From Branchiostoma floridae (lineage: Eukaryota; Chordata; Leptocardii; Amphioxiformes; Branchiostomatidae), in assembly GCF_000003815.2 (NCBI RefSeq), contig NC_049989.1:7652195-7716194 (forward strand): 64,000 nt of DNA, in the 5' to 3' direction. The stretch's first letter is position 1, and each line of letters begins with the position of its first letter. The notes under the pieces are model-generated. The model worked only from the letters and a program-made list of their open reading frames with translations, was not told where the DNA came from and searched no databases. Of this stretch, positions 3,701 to 64,000 are shown one piece after another. Made by a program: the position numbers and the translations under genes.

Positions 3701-6266
3701 ACAGATGTATTTGAAGACATACAATTGAAATCAGTTTTTATTAAAAACGGAAGGGACTACGTTACAAGACTGATAAATGAATAAATAAAAACATGAAAAA
3801 CAGTTAGGGAAGTGAACTACTTAAACAGATGCTTACTGAACACATTTCTGTTAAATTCCTTTCGAAATTACTTTGTAGTATATCAAAATCATCAGACAAA
3901 AAGCCAATTGGAATAATGCCGATTTCTATTATATTTCCATTGCACAAAAATAAGTATAAATGTCCAGTTTTACGTAAGTTTCGTTTTATTATGAAACCCC
4001 ACGGTATGACAAGCATAAAGTAAGCTTAGGATTCAGAAGTACACTTTCTAAGATCATTCTATTACAGGTAGAGACTCTGCACAGCTCAGTCCGGAGTTCC
4101 ACACTGCCATCAACGGTCTACAGCGAAAAAGGTAATTCACTTAATGCCAAAATAGGTAGGGTAAGATGCAGGGGTTCTACCTCCCTGACCACCACCAATG
4201 TTGTGATGATTCCAACTATCAAGTGACAAATTGGTGTAAGTTGTGCCTTCCCAGAAAAAAATATACACTGCAAGTTGAAAGGTTAACAACATTGCCTTCT
4301 GTGTACAACTTAAAAAGAACTCACTCAAACTTACACTGAGGACACCAAGCGCTTTTAGATTGACGGTGACATTTCTATCATCAATCAAATATGGAAGTCG
4401 TCCTTTTTCTACATAATCTATAATCATAATTATGTCTTGGGGTGGTGGGACTTTCGTGCATTGGTATCTATTAGTTGGGCTTGTTATGTGGCGCTGTTAG
4501 AATAAGAGTGCAGCGCCGCATTGTCCTTGTTATGTTATTTGTTCATGAACAAAAAAAGTGCCGACGACCCCATGCACATTTTCAACAAGGACGTTTCTAT
4601 ATGACTTCTTTGTTGTCACAAGGAGCTTTTATCTGATAAAAGCTCCTTGGTTGTCACCAACCCCATGTTATAACTTATACAGCACCACAAACAACAATGC
4701 CGATGACACCCTCCCACCAAACGGCGATGTCCCTCTACACAAGTGCACCAGTAACGAGAGTGAGCACCAATGGTGTTGTTACAACGGCATCATCAATCCA
4801 CACAGGTACGGGCTCGTCAAGAAAATGAAGGTCCTGTAAAACCCAAGCAGATTGAATCTAATACTAGTAACTGTGTGTGGGTGTAATATACGAGTATTGA
4901 AAAATCCATATACAATATGTTGATTTGTTTCTTTTTTACAAAAAAATAGACATATAATGAATTGACTGATTGAAGTTTTTCATTATCCACAGCTGAAAGT
5001 GATAAATTCCTTTTTAATGTCTTGTTTCTTTTACTTGACATATTTCACTGTGACAGGATTATCTTTAGTGTTTGGTGAATATGCATGTTATAATCTGTGT
5101 ATCGTTAGATACCATGGCCAATCATTCAAACTCAAGATGCGTGATATAACGTTAATAACCATTTAGTTTGGCAACCCAGATTGCAAAGTTGAAAGGATGA
5201 TGAACTCTCTCAGATAGATTTAAGTGTACGGGTTTGCGGATGGCCTCCTTCTAGGAAAGACGAATTTCCTTAGAGATGTGTCCTTTGGAGATCCGTGTGT
5301 TGCATTTTGCATCCCCGCTTCATTCCGCAGTTGACATTCGAAATTATAAAAATACTTAATGCTTTGTATTTTTGCAAGGCATTGCTCACAAAATATTCAT
5401 AGAAATAACAAATCCAAACTGTCTTGTATCTTTATCTCCTGACAGCAGAAAGTGTTGGTGACAACGTTAAGTCGGAGATCACCATCCGAAAGGAGGGATT
5501 CAACCCGGCAAAAGTTGCCGTGTCTGCTGACAATGAGATATTTGTCACTGATTCCTGCAGCTTTACATGCATGGGCGTGTCCAATGAGGGACGTGTCCAA
5601 GTCTTTAACATGAACGGCGTTTTTCTTCGCCTCTTTAAAACTGCAGTACCGGGTATCAATGACGTCATGGCGGCTAACGATCTTGCCTTTGACGGAAAAG
5701 GCTTTCTGTGGGTAGTAGGAATGATAGACTATGTACAGGTAGTGCAGTACAGTAGAGAAGGCTTGCCAATGGCCAAAATCGGGGTCAAGGTAGCTGCATT
5801 TAATCCAGCCATTGCGGTGGACACACGAAACAACGACATCGTTCTGAATTTGGATGACGACATATTCAAAATTCGACCAAAATTCGGCTCTGTGTACAAA
5901 ACTTTCAAATTGAATAATGAACACGGGCTTGGATACTTCACAGTTAGTAACACAGGGAATATCGTCGTTCCACTACAGACCACTGTAAGGGTGTACAGCA
6001 GTGATGGCCGTCCGCTTTTCAAATTCAAAGCCTCTGATATACGCAAGAACCAAATGTCTTCACTCGCAGGAATCTGTACAGACAGCTTAGGAAACATCCT
6101 AGTGGTAAACTGGGGAGATGAAAGGGTAGACATGTTCACAAGCAGTGGAGAATTTGTCCGAACAGTAGCAAATGTTAAGAGCCCTTCTAGCATCGCTTTA
6201 GGGCCGAACGGACAGTTGGTAGTAACCAGTTATTATCATAAATCGGTAACAATCTTTCCGCGCTAG
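744..6266 (+). CDS. Type II single-pass membrane protein with cytoplasmic Tyr motifs and extracellular NHL propeller
   Basis: Six exons join in frame: 744-2109, 3230-3345, 3563-3646, 4068-4131, 4683-4805, 5446-6266 (857 aa). The ATG follows a good Kozak context (gccATGG). Residues 1-456 are a disordered acidic cytoplasmic region with repeated Tyr motifs: NPAMYARNV, NPMYAPNVH, IKPYAVRY and IQPYAVAYMSHYDAAYI. Exon 2 gives basic residues (NCRRL), then a helix of about 20 residues (roughly 466-486), so a type II topology with no signal peptide. Exons 3-5 encode a Ser/Thr/Pro-rich stalk. The last exon (about residues 586-857) is an NHL-type beta-propeller, with repeats such as GRVQVFNMNGVFLRLF and ERVDMFTSSGEFVRTV. 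Intron 2 uses a GC donor (AAG|gcaagc). Failure to splice exon 1 would add eight residues and stop before the membrane helix. Function is unknown; a surface receptor or adhesion role is inference only. Confidence 0.85.
4620..4649. mobile_element. 30-bp palindromic insertion with 8-bp target duplication
   Basis: A near-perfect palindrome (AAGGAGCTTTTATC, then its complement) lies in intron 4 of the NHL gene, 33 bp before exon 5. It is flanked on both sides by GTTGTCAC. An 8-bp target duplication around a foldback is typical of hAT-like miniature elements; the family assignment is inference. Confidence 0.55.
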
Positions 6267-10088: not shown

Positions 10089-13000
10089 ATGTCTTCGGGA
10101 GGCACACTCTTCAGACACAGTCGAGCCAGGAGTCCCGAGAGCTGCAGGAGGGAGTCCACTCCTTGGACTATCCTCATGTGGGTGTAACCAATCTCCTGTG
10201 TGGGGAGGTAAGGCATGCATTGGAAATCTGGTAGTATTTCTGAGTTTCCAGTGGGACAACTCACTGTAAACTTAGGCCTAGGAAAAAATGTAGTTTTTCC
10301 TGTTTCCATCCTGAAAAAATAGGGCAGGTAGGTAGGTTTTTTTTTAATTCTTTGTTTTTTTAGACTCTGACCAAAACTCTAGTGATAAAATACAGGTTAT
10401 CAAAACTGGAATGCATGAGGATCCTTATACTTTCAATGTCAAACTTAAATTTTGTGCATGATGATTACAAATCTATGGATACATTTATCCTTCACTTTTT
10501 TACTTGAATAGGAGGCAGGCTGAGTAAAAATTCTAACTGGGAACTATGTGACTTTACTGCCAACCCCCAAAATAGAGTAGGGTCAACAGGTTTTTCTAGG
10601 GTAGGCTGGGAAACAGGAAAAAACATTTTTTCCCTTTGCCTCACCACATTTAAACAGCAAACTTAAAAATATCCCATACCTTTGACTTTCACTTTTCATG
10701 AAATTTGCTGCAAACAAAAATGAATCCACAGTATGGAAAGCCTTATTAGCTGGCTCAAGGTTCCAACTGATCATTAGTTTCAAAGTTGGCAATTAAAGGT
10801 CTAGACTTTCATGAACCCATTACACTTCAAACCTGGATGTACATTAATACTACCTACCTTAATAAACTCCAACTTAAGGTACTCGTGCATCTGGTAAGTC
10901 TTGCACACTCGGAAGATGTTGCCGATGATGTCTTCAGGTGAGTAGCCCATCTTCCACAGGTGTTTGAGGATCTTGTAGGCTTCGTCAATGTTGGCGTCCA
11001 CACAGTGGCCCAGCATCTCTTTCACCAGGAGTGGGTGGGGCTCGTCACAAACCTGCGGGTATTTCAACATTTCATTATCTCTTCAAAAGATGCCAAGACT
11101 GTAATTCATTCAGTAGAGTTGAGACGTATTGTTTGTTTGTTTGTGGTTTAACACACTCAGAAGCTAGATATGGATTATTATGATGGTATGTGGACAAAAT
11201 GTCAACATAACAAAGAGTATGTTACGGCCTCCCAGCAGACTTCTCTGGTACTGCAGGGGAATTTCTGGTTTTGGTATCTTATGTTCTGAACATGCTACGA
11301 TAGTGATATTAGACTAGCAGACAGCTTTTAATGCCAGGAGGACATGGCTCCTAGCAGCTTTTCTTGGTTCCAAATAACATGTTGCAAAAGTAGCTTTAGG
11401 AAATCAAACTACAAAATTGTAATGAGATTTAGACTTTTTTCATATTTGGAACTTTTGGTAGTCAAGAGGCTGAGTTGCAAGATTCATAATACAAACATAG
11501 TCTCAACATGAGAAAATACCACAGTCAAATATACATGTATCCCCAAATGCCAATACATAAAAGATACATAAAAGATATGATGATAGAACCCTGTAAATGT
11601 GGTTTCAGCATAAAAACTGTCTGGAGCCAATGAATGAGAAGTAGGACAGAAGATTCTAACCTTAAACACATTCTCACTGTTGACATATCCAAAGCCTGAC
11701 CATGTAGACTGTAAGTTGTTCAGTGCCTGGATGGAGTAACAGATACAATATTCAGGTGAAACTGTTAACATACTGAAGGAAAAACCTTAAAAACAGAAAT
11801 AACACATCAATAATAAGACATGATGTCTACAGTGTTCTGAACTACTTTGTCTGTTGTATATCATCACCACTTGCAAAAGCAACACTACAAACATCTCCAC
11901 ATTAAAATCAAAAGTACCAGGAATAAAAAAAAATCAATCATACTTTTAAAAAAAGAAGAGACTTTATATACTTCAATGTCATGCATAGACAAAGCTGATG
12001 TGTTATGTTGAAGGGCAATCATTTCATCATGATCAGCTAGCTTAACAATATAAATACTTCAGTAATGTATGTGTGAGGATCAGATCCCACCGCTACCACC
12101 ATCTGTAGTGTGTGGGCGAGTTAAGGTGGCGTTCAGACCTCCTCCTACATAATTATGTACCTGTCTCATGTCCCCCTGAGCTGTGAATATGACAGCCTCC
12201 AGCCCATCGTCTGTGTGTTCTACGTTCTCCTTCTCACACACGTACAACAGTCTCTCCAGGATCTGGTTATCAGTCAGCTTACTGTACCTCAGCACTGCAC
12301 AGCGCGACTGGATGGCCTCTGGGGTACAACATGGAGGGAAAAGACATGAATATGGCATTTACTGAGCTACAACCAGTCTGTTCGTTTACAACAGGTTCTT
12401 GTATTCTTACCACTAATTCATCTTGACCACAGCTGTCTTCAGGTACACTGTAACTGTAAATATACCTGCAAGGCTATGTAGATTCGATGATATGGATGAC
12501 ATCTTCTGGGAACCGGTACCCTAAAAATGATGTCATCCACAAACTCGATTCAACATGCCCTAATATTGTTTAGATACAGGTCCAGATCTAAAAGTAGTGT
12601 ACATATCTGTAACTGTGCCAGTACTAAAACTAAAACAATAGTGGGATAGTGGTTACCAATTTCAGGTGCACAGCCCTAAGGAAGAGTGCCAGAGGTTCTC
12701 ACCTATGATCTTATCTGAAGCGTTACAGGCCAGGGCAAAGCGGGTGGTTTTGGAATAGATCTCCATGGTTCTTCTCAGGGCCTGCTGGGCTCCATCTGTC
12801 ATACTGTGGGAGTAAGTTTGATTTGAAACAAGAGTCAGTCAATATAAGAAATCAACATATTACTCATAATTAGGTGCATTGTATGTGCAGCAGACTGATG
12901 ACAGTATCCATACTGCACATACCCAAACCTTCATGATCAAATAACAGGCCAAAGTCTGTTTCTGTAAAACCATTATCATACCAAAGGTGTCTCAGTGCAC

Positions 13001-22600: not shown

Positions 22601-25600
22601 TGTTTTGTGGAATTGTATGGAGTACAGTAAGAATGATTCACATGTCTGACCTGTGACCTGACCTGCAGTGGTAGCAGTTGTTGGAGCGTAGTCAGGACAC
22701 TGTCTACAGATGGTTCTGGGGGGAGGACGCTGCAATAAACACACATTCTGTGAAATATTACGCTGAAACAAATGCTGCTACAATATCTGAAGACTCGCCA
22801 TCATTTGCGAAGCTGAGTCTTGGTAAAACCATGTAGTCTTTTGGGATAAAAGCACCAAAAAAACACCCAAGAAATCTTACACTTACATGGTGCATTGAGT
22901 ATGGATTATAATATGCCCTCCATCCTCTAGGGGTACTTCCTCCACTGAGGCTGGCATCTTCGTGACCAGAGTCAGAGTCGCTATACTCATCGCTGTAGGA
23001 CTCGTACTCCCTTCTGTGGTGGCCGTGTTTCGGGTACAACATGTCATCGGTGATCTTGTTCTTTTTGTTCAACTCTGCCAGGTCTTCCTCACTTCTCTTC
23101 TTCTCAGGGTGATCCTGAAGTTCAACAGTTATCAAAGTTTGTTTTCATATTACATTCAAGCTGCATCATACAATGAAAAGAGGCTAAAACATGTAACATT
23201 ACTGTATTAGTCTATTAATGCTGCCATGAAACTCTCAAAGATGCAAAAGTGCTGAAAGCAAACAAATGTTGGTATACAATTCTTAGGGCCAAATTGTGGG
23301 TGTAGCTACATGTATTTTACAGTCAAACCTGAGACCACCTCAGCTAGAAGACCACCTAGTCACTGTGGCAACTTTTCTAGGGTACCTTAGATTATTTATC
23401 CCCACGACATACTAAGAATCATGTCTATACTGTCCATACCTGTCTGCTGTAATAATTTTCTTCAGATTCATTGAGTTGTCACCATAGACAAGTTTAACTG
23501 TGCAAATCTTTTATCATCTAAAGAGGAATATGCTACCATAGAAAATACAGTTTTTTTATACATTTGTATATATTTAGAGGTCACTTGTATCAAGACCAAC
23601 AGAAAGACAACTTGTATTATTACAGCAAGTGTAAGAGTATCAGAGTAAGAGTAAGAGTAAGAGTGATTTGGCTCTACCTTGAGGTACACCTGTACCAGGT
23701 TGTTGACGATGTGGTTCTTACTGATGCGGTCCACCTTGTTACGGCAGGATGGACACAGGTTAGACATGTCCATCCACTGGGAGTAGCAGCCGGCGCAGAA
23801 CGAGTGCATGCATGGCTGCAGACTGGACAGAACAGGGCACATGTCAGACAAATCCTTCATATGAGTCATATCTCACTGAAGGCTAGACATTCAGGGAATA
23901 AGATAAGCCAAACGGCAATTACCAAAGCAGCTGGGCAATATACATGTTTCCAAAATCTTACCCATTTGCTTGAGTAATATATATTTGGTGCATTTGTCAT
24001 ATCTATTTTAGAAAGTCAAGAAAGAGAAATGTGTCCTTTAAGATTTAATTTCAAAGACATTTTGATGTGCTTAAGTGACCATACCTGATACAGTCATGCA
24101 AGATATCCTGACACACCCCACAGAGAAGGGTCTCTTCCATTTCATCCCGTGGGGGTGGCTTTGGTTTGACATCTTTAGAACCTGCAGCATCTGTTTCTGT
24201 GGAAGGCCCGGCTACCTGAGAATCCCCCCTTTGGACAGTGGTATCTTCTTTTTCTGCATCTGGTGGTGTGGAAAAGACTTCTGGTTATACATGTCATACT
24301 TCTTTTGTATACAGAAAGATAGATATATAATGATTGTTTACAATAACATCTGAAATACAACTTGCCTTTGGTGTCTTGCTCAGCAGCTGATGTACTAGCA
24401 GCGCCTCCTGTGGCACTAGCTGCAACTGCAGCAGCCGGTTCCCTGCTGGTCTTCTGCATGGAGCTGCCCTGTTTTGCATCCCCCGTACTGGTGTTTGTTT
24501 CTTCCCTGGGCTTCTTGGGAACTGGTTCACTGTCAGAAAACTGGGGTATATAAAAAAGAACATTTAGGCAAGTATTTCAGTCTCCCTGACAAGAAAGTCA
24601 ACCTGAATTATTTCGTACTACACATCTGTTTGTGCTTGTTGTTTTGCATTCAATCAGAACTTTGTATTATTATTTTCTCACCTCCTCCAGTTGTCTCTTA
24701 GCTCCACCACTGGCTCCACTGGCATTACTGGCTTCTGAACCTGTACATGCAGAGACAAAATGCTTTAGTATAGCAAAGTGCCTAATATTACAGGTCTGTT
24801 AATCCCTGGTCCCATCTTACAATATACGTCAAAACAGTTAAGTACATTGAAATCTATTTTGAAATGAAATGTGAAATGTTTTATTCAGTAAGGATCTCGT
24901 GGGTGATACACCCGAATTTTGTCCTTATTACAAATGTACAAGATTTGACAACATATAACGGCATATTGAAAACACTCAAGTATTGCAAAACTCTCTACCA
25001 TACTCCTGTGTCTGTGCCCCAGACTAACCCATCACTGTGTAAGGTAGTGTGTAGTCTATTGTAGACCCCTCAGTGTCACTACCATACTCCTGTGTCTGTG
25101 CCCCCCTCCCCACAACTCACCCATCTCTGTGTTAGGCAGTGTGTAGTCAATTGTAGACCTCTCAGTGTCACTACCATACTCCTATGTCTGTGCCTTCCTC
25201 CCCACAACTTACCCATCTCTGTGTTAGGCAGTGTGTAGTCAATTGTAGACCTCTCAGTGTCACTACCATACTCCTATGTCTGTGCCTTCCTCCCCACAAC
25301 TCACCCATCTCTGTGTTAGGTAGTGTGTAGTCTATTGTAGACCCCTCAGTGTCACTACCATACTCCTGTGTAATGTCAAGCAGAGATTCATCCTCTTCCT
25401 CCTTCAGTCTTGATAAATCTTGGAAAAGGTATGCTATGTCTGGGAAAACAACAACAGAATAGCAACATTAGCAACATTGTGTGTGTAAGATGTTTACATA
25501 ATTAGTAAAACTCGAAAACTGAAGTAAAAAATTGACTCGAGTCAAAGATACATGTATTGTCAGAATTGTACTGAAATATCCACAGAATTGTTCCTTACTT

Positions 25601-37500: not shown

Positions 37501-37875
37501 GGATTCCGTGGGTGACTCTGTCATCTCTGAATCACGGGTTTCCCCGAGGACAACGTCCCAGCAATTAAAAAGGACCAACGAAGTTGGACAAGTACCAAAC
37601 GGGCTGAGGTTGCAGTTTCACTTAGGACGGAAAATCTAGTTTGCACTTTTTTGGACTGAGGACTGCGTTATTTTGTGCTTTCCGACTGGATTTCACCCAA
37701 CATATAGCTTACTTCCTTAAATCAAAAGCTACAGGTGACAGGAAAGATACAGTCATCGTCGTTACGACTTCCTATAGTAAGCTGTCGTAGGCTTCAGAGA
37801 GTCGGTGTTGCTTGGTCAGGCCCCTGAGCGCCTTTTTGAACAGATCTGAAACCAGTGAAAAACTTCTCTGCAACA
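34578..37875. other. Intergenic interval upstream of SBSPON
   Basis: No supported coding exon in 3.3 kb. The last few hundred bases should hold the SBSPON promoter and leader. A foldback element at 34923-35276 is listed separately, and a short palindrome (AAGGACGTT/AACGTCCTT) lies near 35453. Confidence 0.45.
34923..35276. mobile_element. Foldback element, about 350 bp
   Basis: The left end (TCAAGTGCTGTTTTCTGATT) and the right end (its complement with one mismatch, near 35240) are inverted. A second inner pair (CAGTTACTC, then CTGGATA) near 35040 and 35175 shows that most of the element folds back on itself. No target duplication was established. Confidence 0.45.
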
Positions 37876-39757
37876 ATGTCTACTGCCGTATCTCTTCTCC
37901 TGGTGGCGTTTACGGTGCTCCAGTGCCTGGTATGGGACGTGGCGGCGACGTGTTTCAGCTACCCACAGAACCTGTGCTGTAAAGGGAAGAACAACGAGTG
38001 CAAGACAAGCGGCCGTCGGTTGGACGGCACCGTTGGCGCGTGCTTCTGCGACGAGAACTGTTACGTGATGCGGGACTGCTGCTCCGACTACGAGAACGCC
38101 TGCCAAGGTGAGAAAAACTTGAACTTGACACTACAAATTTAGCACAAAGTCACAATGTTATAGGTTGCATAGCATGTAACATTTCTTATATACGTGTAGT
38201 ATTTTTACGGGCGACCTTTCACAAGTTTCACATCTGGGCGAAAGTACGTGTGGACTCATGGCTAGGCAGCTAGTGTGGCCTTGGGTAAGTTGGATTAGGT
38301 TTGACATGTAGTTGTGACCTAAAGCTTCAGTGATTTCAGAACCTGGCTATGTACGCCCCCCAGTTATCTTGGTGTAAGTGTATCGCCGCGTTTGTGGTAA
38401 GCCTGTACTTATCTTTTCTTGCTAGCTATATCTTGGCAAAACAAAGAGGTTCGTTTTAAGTGTTATTTTGGACAGGCAGCTGTGTGTCACACGAGGACGG
38501 GTGGCTTTATTTCCGAGGGAAAAACGTCAACACGTCCGACCTACTGAGCGTGTTGTCCGTCGGATCATCTTCCCTGGCCCGATGTCGTTTGACTCCCCTG
38601 TCAATCAACACAATTTCTTCATCGCCCCTGCTTCTCTAATGAAAATGACGTGCAGGCGTTTTATTCTTGATAAATTGGCCGCTCCACTATACAAAATCAA
38701 CACATTTTTTTCTTGGCGTGGGAATGGGCTCCTGCAAAAACAAGTTATTAAGTCTCGCCGCAACCAAGCTCCTTGCCGCAACACAGCGTTAATTGTTGCT
38801 GCAGGTTCGGACAAACAATTTAACAAAGTATCAGTATTTGTACGGCCTGGCCATTGAAACCAGAGCTGGGATGCAAAGAAACGAGTCCTTTTCAACGTGT
38901 TGGAGTTCTTTGGCGACCGTGTTTGCTTAGAAGAGTCCAGAAGAAAAGAGGTTCAAGGGGAGGGCTGCCATCTCTGAAAAGCTTGACGCGCTTTTGTTTA
39001 TTTAGTCTGAGCTTCACAACACTTCAATAGGACAATGTCAGAACGTAAGAAAGACATGAGCTATGCTGGCAATCAGGTCGTCCCTGGATTCTATTTTGTA
39101 CTTGACTTCTAGACGTTCCCCTTAAGTGGAGGTCAAAACGGCTGCCCCAGGACAGTCACAGTCACTTAGACCTCTGCGTTACATCTACTTGACAACTGGT
39201 AACTGCTTATGTAACTTCTATCTTTCCTCTTACGTCTTGGGCTATTCTATCTTTCGTTTGTTTGTTCGTTCATTCCGTATCTGTCATATTTCTTCCCGTT
39301 TCTCTCCTTTAAATGCATGTCCATTTCTGTCTCCTTTGCTATCCTCCATCATTCTGCCTCTCCTACGTGTTCTTCCTCCGTATTTTGTTTCCTTCTCCGC
39401 TACACCATACACCGTACATGGTCGGGTGCGTGAAGTTATCCAAATGATGTCATCTCCCACTGCTGACGATACTAGAACTGTTCCAAGCCTTTAAACCCAC
39501 AAGCACATATTTGGGTACAAGTAAATGATGGGAAGACTCTTGTGTATCCGGGTACTAGTCTCTTCTAGTCCTCACAGATATCTCCACCCCTTGCTGGTAT
39601 GTCATGCTTAAGCTTATTATTGTAGAGTTGCGAATGCGTCATCATTTAGTCATCAAAATAGAAATAGGTGTGTCTGTACTGAGAAAGAAAGAGAGAGAGA
39701 GCGACAGACAGAAAGACAGACGGACAAACAGGCACGCCCCCTCCCCACACACACACT

Positions 39758-50700: not shown

Positions 50701-53700
50701 AAGCTAGTACAGAATCTGATGTAAAAAATGTCTGACTGCAAATGCTAGCACTTCTAACAAAACATTTGTTAATGTATATTTTTCCAAGTTTGCATCACAC
50801 CACAATATGTGTTGTCTTCCACTGTGTGACTATTCTCCGTTTAGCTTTTTTTGTTGTGCCGTAATATTAGTCATTATTCACAGTATCAAACCAAACAAAC
50901 AAACAAACACAAACCTATGAGTGCATCCACATTTTCTAGATGGCTCCTCAGTGCCATGGCAAACTGTTCCTCTGCCTCTGCGATATCCTTGGCCAACGAT
51001 TGGATAACGCTGTCCTTACGGTCAACGACACGTTCAAAAGTCTGACTGAGAATTTCAATGTCCCTTCGCAGCTCCTTAGACTTGGACTCCCTCATGATGG
51101 CCCGCCACTGGTTGTTGATCTTGTTCAGGTTGAACCTTGTGAACTTTTCTTCTTTTGTGAGTTTATCCTGCAGGAAACAAGAAAGTATCATCAGTCCCTG
51201 ATATCTTTTTTAAAAATTCTTTTTCAATTACCTAGCTCATGATAAAAATTAAGATTTTGCATCATTTATTTTCATTATCTTGGTATTTAAGACAGTTGAA
51301 TTCCAACAGTTCAGCATTTTGACCTATTTTCTCCTTTTCTGGTCGCACCAATCTGATTCCTTGGTTCTCGGATTTTAATAGGGCAGCAAAGTAAAGCTGC
51401 GAACCCAAGGGATAACTTGGTGTAGCTGAAATAAATAAATGATCTCATAAAGCTGGCGTCTACAAACATTACATAATTTTCAGCACTATTGTGTTTGAGC
51501 GAGGCTATTGACACACCCAGTGTGTCAATAGCCTAAACAGGCTATTGACACACTCAGTGCACTATTTTTTTTTTATTTTGACACTAGAAACCACTAAAAT
51601 GAGAAAATCTTACGATTTTATTTGACAGTCAACACTCTGAAAATACAAATGGCATTCTGTGTCCATCATCAACCCAAAATGCGATCTTTTTTACGTGTTT
51701 ACGGAAAGGCCGCATGTAGCCAGTCACAAGTATGCAAATGAGCTAACTATATTTAGTACCATGCAAACACCACATGTGATCATGTTGGCTCAGTTTTGCG
51801 CCACTATGTGATGACGTCACTATTGAGTGACGTCAGTGTTAAGGGTCACGTGGTCGCTCTCTTCCATCATGGCGCCTTGTACTTCACATGTGTGTGAATA
51901 AAGCTCCCTTTGAATCGAGTTGCATCGTGCCTCTGAGTCTCTCATCAGCACCTTCCTGCATCAATGTTGGCGTGGTGGCAGCGGCTGGGAAACGATACCC
52001 ATGTCGAAACCCGAACTTTGTGCCTGGAGGAGTCGCAATAGAGGGAACGGGCCAATCGTAACCAAAAGGATGTAGCTACAACAATGGCGGACGTTCTCAC
52101 TTGTGTTGGAGGGGTTCTGGCGTTTCACCTCCTTCGCGGAGACCCCGGTCGGAATTTACGCCGTGCCGTCTGCACCTAATCCCTGCATCAGCTTCGCTGT
52201 AGACCCACAGAGGTTTCAATAGAAGTTGCAGCTTCGCTGTAGACCCACAGAGGTTTCAATAGAAGTTGCAAAGAGCTTCGCTGTAGACCCACAGAGGTTT
52301 CAATAGAAGTTGCAGGGAGCTTCGCTGAACAACCCCAGAGGACTCATAGAAGTTGTAGGGAGTAGCCTCGGCTTATTTATCCGGCAACCCTTATTTTTCC
52401 GTTCCCCCGACCGAGTGTTTGCGGTGTCCATCAACAACAACATCCGCCATGTTTTCCTGGTTCACCCGACTTCGACCGAGACCGCCCACGGACTTTGCTA
52501 CCGGAACTTTGCCCGTAACTGTAACCTGTGATCTACTAAGAGGAGCATCAACCCACGGAACTGTAGCTGCCTGTAGGAACATCTCAACCAGCGAACACTG
52601 ACTTTTCGTCTGCCAAGAAGAGCGCTAAACACCAAGATCGCGTCGCCCTACACTGAACTGGGACAACTCACAAGCCAAACAGAACTCTGATCCATATCTT
52701 ATCAGTAACCTTTTTGATTATTGCTATATTTGTATATCATTCCTTACGTTAATCTAGACGCGGTAATTCTATGGTAACATTGACATTTTATGCCATTCAA
52801 CTGTCTCAATATTCAGACGTAATGTATTCACAATCTGATGTTAAATGTTATTTGTTACATTATGTTCTACAAACCTTACCTCATCAGTCAACAATTTCCT
52901 TCACATACATCGTCATGTTACTTTCTCTTCACCGGTTCTAAATTTTCTATTTCTGTAACAGGGGGAGGGGTATTTTATGGATAATACTATTATAGTTCAT
53001 GTCCGCTCTGCAGATTTATCACTAAAAATAGACAATATTATCAGATTTTATTCTGTTTCAATCAGAATCTTAAGGCAGAAAGAAGAAGAAATGGAAAAGA
53101 AGATAAATCACGCCACTATGTGATGACGTCACTATTGAGTGACGTCAGTGTTAAGGGTCACGTGGTCGCTCTCTTCCATCATGGCGCCTTGTACTTCACA
53201 TGTGTGTGAATAAAGCTCCCTTTGAATCGAGTTGCATCGTGCCTCTGAGTCTCTCATCAGCACCTTCCTGCATCAATGTTGGCGTTGGAACACGTTTTCA
53301 GCTGTGTTTACTGACGAATTCCTGCCGTTTGGGAGAATTTGCGGCCTCAAAACTTATATTACAAGTGAAGCGAAGTTATAGTTGTTGTTTACTTCTATCA
53401 TTTTTAATGTGAAAGAACTTTGTAGCGTCATAGCGAGATCGACCGATATGTTACGAGTACCGCGATGTTTGGATGACATAGCGGCGGGAAAATCCGCGCC
53501 GCTTCGACCGAAAAAAACGTGAATTTTGGGTAAAAATACCGCAGAAATATGGTTAGAAAAACCCACATTTTATTATTTCAGGGGTCCCTGGTCCAATTTA
53601 AAAACAAATAATAAGTGTACCGTCCAAAATAAGAACGTAGCGGGTGGATTCTACCGATCTGCGTCCGGAAAAAAATAAATGTACCTTAACATGCACTCTT

Positions 53701-58021: not shown

Positions 58022-58911
58022 TATCAAGTCATTAAGTCATACACATGTTGCACTCGGGATCTAGATGTGAATCAACATGTACTGGTGTTGAATGTAGCGA
58101 TGACAAAATGATTTAAAGTGGAAATAATGGGTTTTTGCAAAATCTTCGGCTCTGTAAAATCTTAGAGTTAGATATACTTATTCAAGAGTTTTAACGTTTT
58201 GTCTTCTTACAATTATGTAATAGAAAAAAATTCAGGTTAGAAATAAAAAATAGGTAAGTAATCTAATTAAAAGTCTTATAATCATTTTCGTCTCTTTAAT
58301 AGTTGTATTATGTGTTCTTGCAATAAAGTATAGAATCACACAGCATTGATGAAGAGTACAGTTGACAGGTCAAGAGGATGGTTTCCAGCTGTATGCATGC
58401 TGTTACATTGGGGTCATGCAGCCATTTTCCCCATGTTGTTATGATGTGGTTGTTATTGTTGTGGTAAGTTTGAACTCTGCCCTTTAACCCTTGGGAAGAA
58501 GACTTGTTTTGCTTGGTTCTGTTTACCCCTGGGGGTAAAAAACCAGCCAATTATTCACAGACAGTTTAGTGATGATTCATGCTGACGCCACAACCTGGAT
58601 GTGTCAGCACCTCTCCATCCTGTTCAACAGGTGTCTGGGCTGTGTAAGGGGGGACACCACAAATTTGGCTGGGGTTTTCAAATACATCTCACCAACATAA
58701 TTATATTTTGACATGCATATTTTATTGGCTCAGATGATACCTTACAGCTAATATAAAATTATATATCTTCAGACAATTCTATCTTACTGCCTATTTATGC
58801 ACAATTCCCCATGCTACCCTCCCATTTGCTACAATGGTAAAGCCTCATGCATATTCATGACAAGACAACAAATCTGTGAATATACTTCATCTGTCACAAA
58901 TTCGTTCAACA
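58022..58911. other. ASPDH 3' flank and upstream flank of the microprotein array
   Basis: No supported exon. It probably includes the ASPDH 3' UTR and the promoter of the transcript(s) that begin the array. An AATAAA is present near 58320. Confidence 0.4.
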
Positions 58912-58989
58912 ATGACTAAGTTTGGTATTGGCATACTCATTGCTCTTGCTGGTGGAGCTATCGGCCTTATTGTGTGGCTCGTAGCTTAG
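58912..58989 (+). CDS. Transmembrane microprotein 1 (25 aa)
   Basis: The ATG sits in a good context (caacaATGA). The frame opens MTKFGIGILIALAG and ends GLIVWLVA, then stops with TAG. Everything after residue 3 is hydrophobic, enough for one membrane helix. The stop is followed 11 bases later by a strong donor (TTTG|gtaagtat at 59001). MTKF is shared with the next frame, which supports a common origin. No family is recognised. Confidence 0.5.
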   Translation: MTKFGIGILIALAGGAIGLIVWLVA

Positions 58990-59475
58990 TCAAACATTTG
59001 GTAAGTATTGTATTGCCTTTTTGACATCCTTGGTAACCACACCCAAAACTGACTGGTACGGGTAGGTCAATTTTGACAAGCTCCAGTAGCTATAGACTGT
59101 GACTTCAGTAATGTGGATATAACGCAAGGTCGTTAGAGAATCAATTCAGTTGTCAAAGTTCCATGGTGATGAATGTGTCGATGTGACCTTTCAGGGTCGT
59201 GAGAATAGAAAGCTGTAGAAAGCTTTGCGAGAAGTATACACTGTTTCACATGTTTCTTCACAAGTTAATGTATGTTAACAGCAACATGAAGCTAGGATGT
59301 AACGGTGGGTTGTTGATGAATCCGGTAAAAGAATCCTGAAAAGTTGAGAGGTCGTACGGCATTGACCCTGGGGTACATTTCACCTAAGGGTGTGTACGGA
59401 CGGGACTAGACAATAGGTTACTAACATTACGTTTAACAAATGTGTAAGAAGAAAAAAAAGTAGAAGACGGCAGCC

Positions 59476-59556
59476 ATGACGAAGTTTTGTTGTGTCATCC
59501 CGACGGTTGCTTTTCTCTTAATATTTGGCTGTGTCATCTACATCATGTATCTGTAG
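59476..59556 (+). CDS. Transmembrane microprotein 2 (26 aa)
   Basis: The ATG follows cagcc, an optimal context. The frame opens MTKFCCVIPTVAF and ends GCVIYIMYL. One predicted helix spans residues 6-26. The stop is 33 bases before a donor (CTG|gtgagtg at 59590). It is the closest relative of microprotein 1 at the N-terminus. Confidence 0.5.
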   Translation: MTKFCCVIPTVAFLLIFGCVIYIMYL

Positions 59557-60213
59557 AGGTCCAGGGCCGAAGCCAAACTTCCCTATCTGGTGAGTGTGGA
59601 CTGTTCTGTTTTGTCGCAAAGTTTAAGTACAAAAAGAATCTGGAGTGTGTCAAATCTGGGGCCATTTTGAAAAACTAAAAATTCTAAGAGGAAGATGAAT
59701 TTTGGTACTCTTTGTGATTGATTCACTTGGTTCAAATCGTTCTTGTGGTCACGCTGAAAATAGGAACGATTTGACAAAGTTACCTGTGCTCTTCGGTGAT
59801 TATAGGAATATTAATAATCAGTCCAAAGAGTGTTTATTTAGAATTCTACATATTCATAAGTCAAGTAGTGAGTATAGGATTTACAAGGGTTAAGTACTGG
59901 TACTTTGATGTTCCAGTATTTCGGACCTAAACCTAAATGATCTTCCCTGTACTGTGTACCGGTACTCACCATCCTTAGTCCAGCACCAAAGTCATGGCTG
60001 GCTATGATCCAGACAAAATACTGTCGTCGACATATGTCAACAGTCAATTAGACATGGAATTCACCGAACAGTAATTTATATGTTAGCATTGATAGACCAA
60101 ATTCATTCTTTTGTTATAACGTAATGTCCCGTAGGTTACCTTACATAACCTGAGCGCTGTGCTCTTGACGGCCCCCTTATGTACGTAGCTACATGTAGCT
60201 ATAGGTTCCAACA

Positions 60214-60321
60214 ATGGTCAAGTGTTTTACTGAACAAGAACGCGGACAGTTTGTCACGGGTGCCGTGATGTTGGCCACCTTTATGTTCGGCTTATGTGTC
60301 CTCTATGTCTTTTTTGGCTAA
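60214..60321 (+). CDS. Transmembrane microprotein 3 (35 aa)
   Basis: The context is aacaATGG. A polar N-terminus (MVKCFTEQERGQ) leads into a helix ending GLCVLYVFFG. The stop TAA is followed by one base and the donor (TAAG|gtgagt at 60323). A weak acceptor (gctatag|) lies at 60204. The C-terminal pattern G-x-x-x-Tyr-x-Phe-Phe-Gly resembles neighbours 4 and 5. Confidence 0.55.
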   Translation: MVKCFTEQERGQFVTGAVMLATFMFGLCVLYVFFG

Positions 60322-60814
60322 GGTGAGTTAGTTATCCTCTCGAATTTGTTCATACAACTGTGAATCAGTGCATTTATCTAATCACTTCTTCAATCATGCA
60401 ATAAGCGTTGATATCTATTTTTGATGTGAAATATGATTTCTTGTATACTCTTGTATGCTCAGAACAATACTTAAGCCTCGGTAATATATTACAGTTTTAC
60501 TACAGCTGTTTTGTAGGCAGAAAGGTTTACCCCGATCATATTTTGCATTGTAGACACGTACCAACAGACAACATGGTTTCTCGGGTCTTTTGTTGCCGTC
60601 TGTTTGTCTCTAATTCCTGGTACTGTCTGTAAGTTGACTGCGCCCAACGAAGATCGTGATAAAATTCAGACCTCATGATTAGATGATAATTACGTTTCTT
60701 AATCAAATGAAGCCATTATGACGATACGTTACAGACAACAACCAAATGAATAAAACAACGGATCCAATTTTCTTTTACTTGTAGAGAGCTTTGATATTTT
60801 TAGATTCAATCGCC

Positions 60815-60901
60815 ATGTCACAGAGCAGTAGGGACTGTATATTCCGCATTATACTTTTTGGTTCCGTGGTTGGAGGACTACTTTACCTGCTTCTCGCATA
60901 G
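60815..60901 (+). CDS. Transmembrane microprotein 4 (28 aa)
   Basis: The context is tcgccATGT. The frame opens MSQSSRDCIFRI and ends GGLLYLLLA. A good acceptor (cttttacttgtag|) ends at 60784 and a donor (CACAAG|gtgaga) begins at 60908, six bases after the stop. This block therefore looks like a complete internal exon holding a complete ORF. Confidence 0.6.
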   Translation: MSQSSRDCIFRIILFGSVVGGLLYLLLA

Positions 60902-61471
60902 CACAAGGTGAGAAAATGAATTGACTTTTTTATATTTGAGATGAGAATCACTCCAATACTCTTTTATCATGACAAGGCAGATTCATGACCACATTTTTTC
61001 TAAAAAATCAAATCCAAAATATCATATGATCGTTTTAAACACTATTGGACAACTCGTTAGAAAATGGCAACGATCATTTGATTTTGTTATCACCGTGTTT
61101 AATTCTTCTCATCGGATGTGCATGCCTGATCTGTCTTCTCTCGCTATAGAGGTCGTAGTAAAACTATGGACAATCTTTTGATGATTTGTAACGTGAAAAA
61201 AAAAAGAATTATAAGCTATCTTGTTTTTCCAGAACTTTCGTTCCTTTCTTTCAGCTTGCTCATTCACAAAGCCTTCATCTACAATCTACCCAAGTTCTGA
61301 AGTTGTTGTGGCGCCCCCTTGCACTCAAACCTTAAAAGGTCACATAGATTTGTGACGTAGCAAGTTGTTCCCGTATCGCTGTCATGCTTTTTTAACTGTC
61401 AAATGTGAAGAGCGTCGAAGCGTAAGGCATCTGTTGAAGTTCGCTGTTACTACAGCACTGTTCCTCTAACC

Positions 61472-61570
61472 ATGAAAATGCACTGCAACGCAGAACGCCG
61501 AGAGGCCATCATCAAAATCCTCTTCACGTGTATAATCATCGGGGGCTTCTGCTATTTGTTTCTAGGCTGA
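61472..61570 (+). CDS. Transmembrane microprotein 5 (32 aa)
   Basis: The context is taaccATGA. A charged N-terminus (MKMHCNAERREA) precedes a helix ending GGFCYLFLG. The stop TGA is followed by one base and the donor (TGAG|gtaagc at 61572). Acceptor candidates are gttactacag| at 61455 and earlier pyrimidine-rich sites near 61231 and 61255. Confidence 0.6.
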   Translation: MKMHCNAERREAIIKILFTCIIIGGFCYLFLG

Positions 61571-61981
61571 GGTAAGCTGGAAATCCAATTGAAACCGTAA
61601 AATGTAAAACTTAACTACGCCCAATCAGTCAACCTTGGTAAAACACAACGATCGTTCCGATGGCTTCCGCTTGTTTCATCGTGACTAGTCAATGCACTAG
61701 CAGCAAATCTAGCGCCAGCTTTTCAATTGTGAATGTCTTTAGTTTGATCTTTTGATCCATTCGCAAACGTTCTTTTTTTGGTCGTGGAACTTGAGCACGT
61801 CTTCGACAGTCTTGGCGGTATTTGTTCCTAAGCTTCAGTGCTTTCATGTTTGACATGTACAAATGCATCGTTCAAGAGATATTGCATAAACCATAGAATG
61901 ACTTGCCGGAGAAGATAACCGTGGCATACTAGTATACTTAATTCGGAATAGGAGTAAAGCATCTTTTGATTCGAATTCTAT

Positions 61982-62059
61982 ATGTTCATCGCCATTTTAG
62001 GTGCGTCCATTGTTTTCATCTTATGGGTAGAGTTTGGAGGCTGTTGCGTAATTGATTAA
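61982..62059 (+). CDS. Possible microprotein without a clear donor (25 aa)
   Basis: The frame opens MFIAILGASIVFILW and ends EFGGCCVID. It is hydrophobic and of the same size as its neighbours. No 5' splice site follows the stop, and an acceptor-like ttttag lies inside the frame, so it may be chance or a decayed member. Confidence 0.25.
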   Translation: MFIAILGASIVFILWVEFGGCCVID

Positions 62060-62330
62060 TTCATGCATGATTCGAAAACTAATTTAAACCAAAGGACGTG
62101 GGTGGAAAGACACCTAAAATATCAGAGACTGAATAAAAGACAAATTGTTTAAGTATGTTATATGGGAAAATAAATATATTAAGTCGTTTCAGCTTCTAAG
62201 AAAAAAATCGGCTTTTACGGTTACTACTTACTAATTACAAATTTCATGCAATGTGATCAAGACAAAGATTTTGAAGGCAAACAAAATCAGTGTTTCACGA
62301 AAACTGAATTTTACTAAACGCTAAAAGCAG

Positions 62331-62573
62331 ATGGCAAAAGATCTGGTACAAAATGATTCACTTTCTGAACTGTTGGATATTCGACCCTTCCCTCAAACCA
62401 ACCCGGAAAACCGGACCAGCAACTTGGATGTTTTAAGGGGTCACTTCATCCCTGATATGCCGCACTCTGACAGACAACGCGCAGAAATGGTCATGGGAAG
62501 GAAAGAGTGTGTCATGCGAGTGGTTCTTGTCAGCGCTGTTATCGGGACATTCATTTTTGCCGTGCTCACATAG
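62331..62573 (+). CDS. Tail-anchored member of the array (80 aa)
   Basis: This is the longest member. About 58 soluble residues (MAKDLVQNDSLSELL at the start, then HSDRQRAEMVMGRKE) precede a C-terminal helix, RVVLVSAVIGTFIFAVLT, that ends at the stop. An acceptor-like aaaagcag| ends one base before the ATG, with a branch-like actaaac. The donor TAGAG|gtactg follows the stop by two bases. The topology would be tail-anchored with the N-terminus in the cytosol. Confidence 0.6.
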   Translation: MAKDLVQNDSLSELLDIRPFPQTNPENRTSNLDVLRGHFIPDMPHSDRQRAEMVMGRKECVMRVVLVSAVIGTFIFAVLT

Positions 62574-63455
62574 AGGTACTGTATTGGAACAGTCATAGTT
62601 TCAGTTAGTTATAAGGCCAACATTGGAACTCGTAATACCCATAGGATTTGAAACGACACTGCTAAATACCGACTTTAGTCCTTGGTGCCAGATGTTGTAG
62701 ATTTGTGTTCTTCGCTAGTCTAGCCGTGTCCTTATGAATAATTCCATCCACCTATCTTGTCGTTACATATTTGATAAATTTCATCTACCTATAAAATGCG
62801 CGCTAATGTTAATTTGGGCCTCTGATTGAAACCCCTTACTGTACCCACTGAAGCCGCGATTGGTTGCCTTGGGGGCCTTAGTCTTAGTTGTCTGCCGGGC
62901 CGTAGTTCTACTATGTACGGTGTTCCATGGTATGCCCTTTGACTATCAGAACAGGTTTTGTCTCGATTTATACAATGATTTGTACGGTGTTTGAGCATTT
63001 AAGCTTACACACACTTGCCTTGTACTTCACAGCTTGGCTTTGGAATAACGTGAAAAGTGGAGCTATGTATATAGCACGTTAAAAACGTGCAATAGAATAG
63101 ATGGGCATTACTTCTACCGTACCTTTGTTCTCACTGACAAATAATTTAGACATTTCCACTTTCCGTTAAACTTGATAGAATATTGATATGAAATTATAGT
63201 TGACATAGCAAGTTCAAATTATGTTGCATGTCTTTATTTGCATTTGTTTTATTGTCATGTTTGGGATTGCAACACATCAAAAGTGGCTTTTATGCACATC
63301 ATTTTTGAAATTTCAGAAAGACTCGCAAAACCTAGCTTCTGCATGGCTTATAGATATAATTGTGCTTTGCTTCTGCTTGCAACTTAAGTCTATGCTTTTG
63401 CTCTTTTTTGCTTTACAGAATTCGCTTTTAGCACAGATAAGCCGCTGCAGCAAGT

Positions 63456-63545
63456 ATGAGCATTGGCAACCAGGTTGTGAGCTTTTTCGCTGTTTGTGCT
63501 GGGCTTATGTTCGGCCTCTTCCTGGTCACGGTGGGCATGGTATAG
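63456..63545 (+). CDS. Transmembrane microprotein 6 (29 aa)
   Basis: The frame opens MSIGNQVVSFFAV and ends GLFLVTVGMV. A strong acceptor (cttttttgctttacag|) ends at 63418 and a strong donor (ACAG|gtaggt) begins at 63550, four bases after the stop. This is the best-defined internal exon of the array. Confidence 0.6.
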   Translation: MSIGNQVVSFFAVCAGLMFGLFLVTVGMV

Positions 63546-63595
63546 ACAGGTAGGTGGCTTTCTTTCGCACGTTCCTAACGCTTACTGTGCACTTG

Positions 63596-63660: not shown

Positions 63661-63894
63661 CAGCAACAACGAACTAGCCAACCGACTAGACAATATGTCA
63701 GTAGAACATATAATCTCAAGGATACATGTAATTAATTTTACTGACTGTGCAGTCTGCATTTCACGTTGTACCTCGTTTTCCTTTCAGAGTATGCTGAGGG
63801 GATAGCTTCAAAGATTCAGTACAGGATAAGTTTTGACAAGCTTTAATTTGTAAAGATATTTTTGTTTTCTCTACCACACATTAGGGCAGCTGCA

Positions 63895-64000
63895 TGCCAC
63901 GGTAGGAGCTTGCAGGAAGGATGGACGGTAGCTACAGACAGCAGGCCTGGGCTATGGACACCAAACACCAAGTCATCACATCCTCGGCGTCTTCACAGCG
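63895..64000 (+). CDS. First coding exon of an unidentified gene, cut by the window edge
   Basis: An acceptor (ctaccacacattag|) ends at 63894. After a three-codon upstream frame, an ATG at 63921 in good context (gaaggATGG) opens a frame that runs to the window end (26 codons, starting MDGSYRQQAWAMDTKH). It is polar and soluble in appearance, unlike the array. A further candidate acceptor lies at 63787. The array exons could be leaders of this gene. No family is recognised from so short a piece. Confidence 0.45.

Follow-up and report, generated by a model that had tools for sequence, protein, structure and literature searches.

Is a run of tiny open reading frames (ORFs) in the Florida amphioxus, Branchiostoma floridae, a set of genes, and if so, what might their products do? 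The window is a 64-kb stretch of B. floridae contig NC_049989.1 (C11:7652195-7716194 in the 513-Mb assembly that we used for own-genome searches), and the ORFs begin at its position 58912. All coordinates are in window numbering, carried on into downstream DNA to 163000; those above 64000 are window-equivalents. The array comprises about 15 plus-strand frames, each apparently encoding about 25-80 residues, most of them in one putative membrane-crossing helix, and it spans about 31 kb, reaching about window-equivalent 89809. Our analysis suggests that this single locus carries, in tandem, a multigene family for membrane microproteins with one helix each, which may dock on and regulate larger membrane proteins. 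We give this explanation as a whole a probability of about 0.6, and consider its gene-family part, as read from the DNA, very probable.

Helix-encoding frames and their predicted splice donors

The window holds the following members, given here with their predicted splice sites and with two putative exons (a caret marks the splice point; R-type and MS-type are subfamilies described below; nt, nucleotides; UTR, untranslated region).

58912..58989, plus strand: microORF MTKFGIGILIALAGGAIGLIVWLVA; donor TTG^GTAAGT at 59001, score 8.3, 11 nt past the stop; no good acceptor in the 90 nt upstream
59476..59556, plus strand: microORF MTKFCCVIPTVAFLLIFGCVIYIMYL; donor CTG^GTGAGT at 59590, score 10.7, 33 nt past the stop
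60214..60321, plus strand: microORF MVKCFTEQERGQFVTGAVMLATFMFGLCVLYVFFG; donor AAG^GTGAGT at 60323, score 12.2, 1 nt past the stop
60815..60901, plus strand: R-type microORF MSQSSRDCIFRIILFGSVVGGLLYLLLA; possible acceptor 60785 (7.8); donor AAG^GTGAGA at 60908
61472..61570, plus strand: R-type microORF MKMHCNAERREAIIKILFTCIIIGGFCYLFLG; acceptor possibly 61255 (13.7); donor GAG^GTAAGC at 61572
62331..62573, plus strand: R-type microORF of 80 residues; weak donor GAG^GTACTG at 62576, score 4.1
63419..63549, plus strand: putative complete internal exon holding 63456; acceptor 12.3, donor 10.5
63456..63545, plus strand: microORF MSIGNQVVSFFAVCAGLMFGLFLVTVGMV, the first of the MS-type, whose other seven members lie downstream of the window
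63885..64000, plus strand: start of a putative 3'UTR exon that runs past the window to about 64270; "MDGSY" frame at 63921

An earlier note on this DNA described seven complete frames of 25-80 codons with a C-terminal helix, and we recovered all seven at these positions, from ATG to stop. Donors are strong (8.3-12.2) at 58912, 59476, 60214, 60815, 61472 and 63456, and weak at 62331, which has a longer polar N-terminus and the same tail as the other R-type members.

We scored ORFs under a strict rule that takes the first ATG, a length of 20-100 residues, and a hydrophobic 18-mer finishing at most four residues from the C-terminus. On the plus strand of the 64 kb, 8 of 317 ORFs had such an 18-mer, and all eight lay inside 58.9-63.5 kb; six of these eight had a donor scoring at least 8 within 40 nt of the stop (spacing 1-33 nt). 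Markov controls (400 simulated 6-kb sequences per order) gave means of 0.0075 (order 2) and 0.015 (order 3), with a maximum of 1. This excess of helix ORFs with donors supports the idea, also from the earlier note, of exon-like blocks that each hold a complete single-helix microprotein. On the window's minus strand, the strict rule yielded 3 C-terminal helices among 302 ORFs, none with a donor of at least 8 within 40 nt. Permitting proline in the helix added a single plus-strand ORF, 43532, whose donor scored 0.7.

For the full 163 kb we applied a looser rule, with proline permitted in the helix and a donor score of at least 6. The plus strand of the 30.9-kb array held 20 transmembrane ORFs (TM-ORFs), 14 of them with a donor; the remaining 132.1 kb of that strand held 6, and the entire minus strand 14 (among 814 ORFs), and none in either set had a donor. 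By this rule no member lies upstream within the window, nor across 73 kb beyond the array. Our count of 15 members consists of the 14 donor-bearing TM-ORFs plus 62331, included by paralogy; those found downstream of the window start at 67015, 70773, 73378, 78248, 84044, 85110, 87191 and 89723. The array had previously been taken to end at 63549, and it instead runs on downstream, with about twice as many members as claimed. These data strongly support an organization in which each member would have its entire coding sequence (CDS) in one exon-like block, with the stop codon just before a predicted 5' splice site.

Several hydrophobic ORFs were rejected as members. A possible eighth window frame, 61982, proved unsupported: it has a weak donor (5.0, 38 nt away), a poor start context (T at -3), no paralogue, and no match to either subfamily profile. 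Within the array, 71470, 79940, 82112 and 87538 all lack a donor of at least 6. ORF 161248 showed a donor of 10.5 in a still looser scan, but its last eight residues are polar and it fails the looser rule.

Subfamilies and selection on the encoded peptides

The members appear to form at least two subfamilies and to be partly paralogous. The MS-type has eight members (63456, 67015, 70773, 73378, 84044, 85110, 87191 and 89723), which mostly start with M-S-[IL]-[GN]-x-Q and share one invariant Q column and one invariant A column in their alignment. The R-type has three (60815, 61472 and 62331), and these are clear paralogues: in a stop-anchored shuffle test of 21 window pairs, the scores of three pairs, all R-type, were reached by 0 of 500 shuffles, and the other 18 pairs gave p of at least 0.064. 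Summed over the 21 pairs, the alignment score was 310, versus 147±33 for shuffled peptides. The paralogy that the earlier note suggested across the window frames is clear for the R-type trio and not significant for the other 18 pairs, and 63456, which had been placed in one family with its upstream neighbors, groups with the downstream MS-type instead. The MTKF common to 58912 and 59476, and the MVKCF of 60214, are only suggestive of kinship, and 78248 stands outside both subfamilies.

Profiles of the two subfamilies, run against six frames of the 163 kb, recovered their own eight and three members, which are in the profiles by construction; the next-best matches beyond these had E values of 0.028 (MS-type) and 0.093 (R-type). 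Own-genome searches with single peptides miss clear paralogues, so the uniqueness of members is not established by them. The 60214 query matched only itself; 61472 found itself and one weak place (E 0.6), missing 60815 and 62331; 62331 found itself and two weak places (E 1.2 and 3.1), missing 60815 and 61472; 84044 found 85110 and 89723 and missed the remaining MS-type members; and 67015 found, within the array, 70773 and 73378 only. None of the searches with 62331, 84044, 60214 and 61472 gave a strong match off-locus, by a method that also misses in-locus paralogues.

We used selection on the peptides, measured between in-genome paralogues, as a stand-in for transcript, ribosome footprint and other-Branchiostoma comparisons. 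Gap-free alignments covered the last 23 codons of the R-type members and, for the MS-type, two groups (63456/67015/70773/73378 and 84044/85110/89723), with 87191 left out. The changed proportion of nonsynonymous sites (pN) was lower than that of synonymous sites (pS) in all 12 paralogue pairs, which are related and hence not independent tests. Fisher p was below 0.05 in eight (best values 1.2e-6, 4.9e-6 and 3.1e-5), and in all 12, pN lay at or under the lowest 0.5% of 400 codon shuffles. The 84044/85110 pair differs at 13.0 of 62.7 nonsynonymous and 17.0 of 21.3 synonymous sites, and 63456/70773 is among the three strongest pairs. For 60815/61472, pN was 0.42 and pS 1.05 (above 1, since 18.3 synonymous changes were counted on 17.5 sites); for 60815/62331, the values were 0.40 and 0.79. 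The recent pair 67015/70773, with two synonymous and two nonsynonymous changes, is little informative. Across these pairs, purifying selection was seen in all three R-type and in seven of the eight MS-type members.

A purine stands at -3 in 14 of the 15 member starts, versus 51% of 658 regional ATGs (p 6e-4), the sole exception being 62331, with a C. Synonymous codon use in the seven window ORFs (255 codons) scored 3.3 bits, with a non-coding null of -26.7±8.4 lying 3.6 standard deviations (SD) below. That the two subfamilies evolve as proteins, from predicted start codons in good context, is strongly supported by these comparisons.

Predicted gene structure and a transposon-borne copy

Four MS-type members have acceptors 17-37 nt ahead of the ATG (63456, 12.3; 67015, 11.2; 70773, 7.0; 73378, 13.8), and acceptors near 84044 and 85110 score 7.2 and 6.7. 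Ahead of 67015, 70773 and 73378 we found a repeated module consisting of the palindrome CTGGTNTAACCAGTT, which we take to resemble a Grainyhead site, a CATAAAG or CGTAACA box, and then CTGCTCGCGGAATT(T/G)ACAG^GTAAA. With its palindrome, TATA-like box and exon end, the module reads as a putative promoter and 5' exon. The palindrome occurs with 0-2 mismatches at 66218, 67701, 70206 and 71708; three copies precede MS-type genes, and a CATAAAG box follows in three of the four. The fourth module copy, at 67.7 kb and directly before a 3' exon at 68 kb, is missing the exon end.

The putative exon starting at 63885 recurs near 68.0 kb (72% identical) and near 73.8 kb (83%), and both copies retain its acceptor; a stronger acceptor at 63788 (11.5) and a candidate polyadenylation signal, ATTAAA at 64267, are not retained in the copies. 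Its MDGSY frame (72 codons) is neutral between the 63.9- and 73.8-kb copies (pN 0.068, pS 0.073), carries a stop in the 68-kb copy (one of three copies broken), and matched nothing in Pfam or PDB. Because the frame is neutral and broken in one copy, we read this exon as probably 3'UTR, and on the same grounds, together with its shortness and its place in a duplicated exon, we rejected MDGSY as a second cistron. The neutral frame also serves as a control beside the lower pN than pS of the microORFs.

Copies of the 3' exon follow 63456, 67015 and 73378, three of the eight MS-type members. Two of these, 67015 and 73378, resemble complete genes of three exons, with the entire CDS in the middle one. 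In the remaining members, the visible structure appears to lack parts on one side or on both. The promoter/5'-exon modules of three members and the 3'-exon copies of three favor small genes over upstream ORFs (uORFs), and for some MS-type members we favor separate short genes composed of a putative 5' exon, CDS exon and 3'UTR exon. Between 63456 and 73378, the 3' exons agree at 93% over the 72-codon stretch, far more than the CDS exons (62%), a pattern that exchange or conversion of exons could leave.

Searching the genome with 67015 also revealed seven places on other contigs, six with E values from 6e-9 to 1e-7 and one with 5.3.

C8, C9, C12, C2, C152, C18 and C7: element copies L021-L027, with array segment 70561-72155 present in full or for the most part

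Main stretches of these off-locus copies are 74-84% identical to the array, and the copies are mostly 81-98% alike among themselves. Inverted ends resembling AGAGGGTCTGCATG were present in all five copies checked of the seven, and 4-bp target duplications were detected in two of the five by script and in a third by eye. The microORF is intact in four of the seven, and in the others it has a stop, lacks the ATG, or is reduced to its last 20 residues (one copy each). This transposon-like element has no long ORF in the copy examined, and its array segment includes the exon for one microprotein together with the promoter module belonging to the gene that follows. Since the element's end regions have no match within the array, we read the element as a DNA transposon that would have captured one member from the array.

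A 90-residue JGI protein from a 2741-bp contig (P0004) was considered as an orthologue from another amphioxus, but its last 29 residues are identical to transposon copy L023, and its N-terminal part resembles a frame in copy L022. As a transposon copy, P0004 was excluded as evidence of conservation; viral contigs held no relative of it.

Known families, competing readings and a possible mode of action

Pfam returned nothing for eight window peptides (61982 among them) or the eight MS-type members, and sequence-based PDB searches, with 60214 by itself and with profiles A2 and A4, returned no credible relative; the two profiles matched no regulin. Profile matches in PDB to a pilin, a cytochrome oxidase polypeptide, "Membrane protein" chains, photosystem II protein T and an ABC-transporter protein (E 0.15-9.6) were judged to be chance. 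In a 5.8-billion-protein database that holds B. floridae and B. lanceolatum entries, using a search that demands three shared 5-residue words, the 80-residue 62331 query gave no candidate and a 15-row alignment query gave only P0004. Between 40 and 64 kb, Rfam had no family that reached its gathering score. Among the matches listed for literature on amphioxus or Branchiostoma microproteins, small ORFs (smORFs) and gene clusters, no title or abstract opening described such an array, in line with the earlier note, which knew of no described chordate locus like this.

Regulins (PLN, SLN, DWORF, MLN and the sarcolambans) are like the array peptides in size, single C-terminal helix and short polar N-terminus; a single C-terminal helix with a short N-terminal part was found in the array as well, with the helices of 60815 and 62331 borderline. 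They differ in that we found no significant sequence similarity, that the array helices score as less hydrophobic, and that the array has many tandem members. Most regulin loci hold a single gene; the fly sarcolamban transcript contains two smORFs. Seventeen residues before the end, counted by eye and without a chance control, all three R-type members have R or K and 59476 has P, and no polar or helix-breaking residue stands there in 58912, 60214 or 63456. The regulin sites set beside these are PLN Asn34, MLN Lys27 and DWORF Pro15, as given in PMC8396278. Among 32 local alignments (eight window peptides by four regulins) the lowest p was 0.03, uncorrected, and none was significant; both alignments at 0.03 involve fly sarcolamban A, and two of the four regulin sequences are unconfirmed. 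Comparisons for the downstream members were confined to Pfam and PDB. The outcome for the window peptides agrees with the caution of the earlier note about the likeness to sarcolipin, DWORF or sarcolamban.

Hemotin is akin to Stannin. Like the array products, it is an animal membrane microprotein; at 88 residues and described as metazoan-conserved, it is set beside the array by description only (PMC4807881). Drosophila Sloth1 and Sloth2 are likewise small peptides encoded side by side, but they are two peptides from one bicistronic transcript (PMC9681215), whereas amphioxus has about 15 exon-like blocks over 31 kb, which seem to make up several genes. Human bicistronic mRNAs described in PMC13303939, STREMI/SLC35A4 among them, also place a membrane microprotein uORF ahead of another frame; in amphioxus, unlike there, the following frame MDGSY shows no selection.

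How else might the locus be read? It is possible, if doubtful, that the blocks belong to a single transcription unit, as alternative first exons or cassette exons of which one would be spliced to a common 3' exon. The locus would then offer a microprotein menu, and some mRNAs may carry two microproteins. Strong donors combined with weak acceptors within 90 nt (58912, -3.0; 59476, -0.9; 60214, 4.1; 61472, 3.4; 62331, -2.1; 60815 differs at 7.8) would suit such a unit, as would three further features: the lack of AATAAA or ATTAAA on the plus strand from 58322 to 60749, with just three such signals thence to 64000; the start, at 63885, of the first 3' exon that has copies elsewhere; and the well-formed internal exon around 63456. 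The separate promoter/5'-exon module at three downstream MS-type members favors separate genes there. This arrangement is compatible with the coding claim. We consider it unlikely that the members are SERCA regulators of the regulin family itself (phospholamban, sarcolipin, DWORF, sarcolamban): the build is the same, and the conserved R/K of the R-type and the proline of 59476 lie 17 residues before the end by eye, but the 32 comparisons, Pfam and the PDB profiles A2 and A4 point away from that family.

Very improbable, in our estimate, is that these hydrophobic ORFs are spurious, lying in exons or repeats and yielding no protein. Intermediate codon use and the presence of one member's sequence in a dispersed transposon are what such ORFs might show, and the helix-ORF enrichment, the start context and the lower pN than pS all speak against it. 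Least probable of all is that the microORFs are uORFs of a longer downstream protein, bicistronic as in SLC35A4 or MIEF1. Human mRNAs of that kind are described in PMC13303939, and an open MDGSY frame does lie behind an acceptor at 63921, but that frame has only 72 codons, is neutral between two copies and is broken at 68 kb.

Returning to a tandem family of short genes, we considered how its products may act. The predicted peptides are single helices that finish at the C-terminus or close to it. In several, basic residues precede the helix, and four of the eight MS-type members have no charged side chain at all. The best 19-mers of the seven window ORFs score at or below 0.00 on an energy-like scale, and a small-xxx-small motif, A-x3-[GS], which makes a face of a type known to pack helices, is kept in all eight MS-type members. 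Nonsense-mediated decay follows a 50-55 nt rule for an exon junction downstream of the stop. The stop-donor spacing of 1-35 nt would keep a 3'UTR intron from marking the mRNA for decay; with the junction inside that limit the mRNAs would not be decay targets, which fits the microORF as the main product. In the least certain part of our reading, the peptides may insert as single C-terminal helices in an internal membrane with the N-terminus cytosolic, and the small-xxx-small face could pack against a larger membrane protein, tuning its target much as regulins tune SERCA. Of the modes of action, such docking seems to us the likeliest, at somewhat less than even odds.

A number of observations weigh against this reading. 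The seven window helices score as less hydrophobic (-2.23 to 0.00) than four regulins (-6.19 to -3.38), with 60815 and 62331 at -0.04 and 0.00. Small-xxx-small also arises in shuffled helices at frequencies of 0.21-0.76 (MS-type) and 0.08-0.99 (14 tested); it is absent from 59476 and 61472, and within the MS-type it is shared partly by descent. The short stop-donor spacing is partly by construction, the donor search being confined to 40 nt. Four of the 12 paralogue pairs are non-significant (Fisher p 0.073-0.24), 58912, 59476, 60214 and 78248 lack a paralogue that could be aligned for the selection test, and 87191 stands outside the set used for nonsynonymous-to-synonymous comparison (dN/dS). 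Codon use is 2.7 SD under the exon expectation (27.9±9.1, trained on 1532 codons from exons picked by eye), and so intermediate overall. As for gene structure, the acceptors close to 87191 and 89723 are poor (-2.2 and 3.9), 63456 has no promoter module, and no 3'-exon copy follows 70773 or the members at 84-90 kb. The first six blocks share no upstream module, have no 3'-exon copy among them, and mostly lack close acceptors, the exceptions being 60815 and possibly 61472.

Other features of the window lie upstream of the array. The nearest recognized gene (50889-51209, minus strand) carries an NYD-SP28 sperm-tail domain and, judged by eye, is probably DRC2/CCDC65. We also noted exons of a replication factor C subunit (10804-12358, minus strand), a RING protein, CHFR-like by eye (23471-23872, minus strand), an NHL/SMP-30 protein (5409-6263, plus strand) and a somatomedin-B-like domain slightly below cutoff (37840-38139, plus strand). 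A 92-bp tandem repeat at 25023-25371 (3.8 copies, 94% matches) overlaps a minus-strand open frame at 25174-25467, and the ORF at 744-2129 matches a B. floridae UniRef protein with 100% identity across 99% of the ORF.

Known cases of microproteins have mostly been discovered gene by gene, and ones this small easily escape gene prediction. In this array, about 15 related and diverged members provide internal paralogues, so that one genome is enough for reading selection and functional residues. On a bolder view, which we regard as improbable though worth stating, the locus would offer a menu of about 15 single-helix peptides as interchangeable exons or micro-genes with promoter and 3'UTR modules in common, tuning membrane proteins and mobile by transposon. 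If so, its subfamilies would tune different membrane proteins, or the same pump across tissues, and the modules would be mobile enough for a transposon to carry a member and a promoter module to other chromosomes. The array makes it testable whether tandem duplication can enlarge a set of single-helix regulators, as it has enlarged receptor or venom families, and amphioxus would offer a system for that question. It also provides a case of a microprotein exon carried by a DNA transposon.

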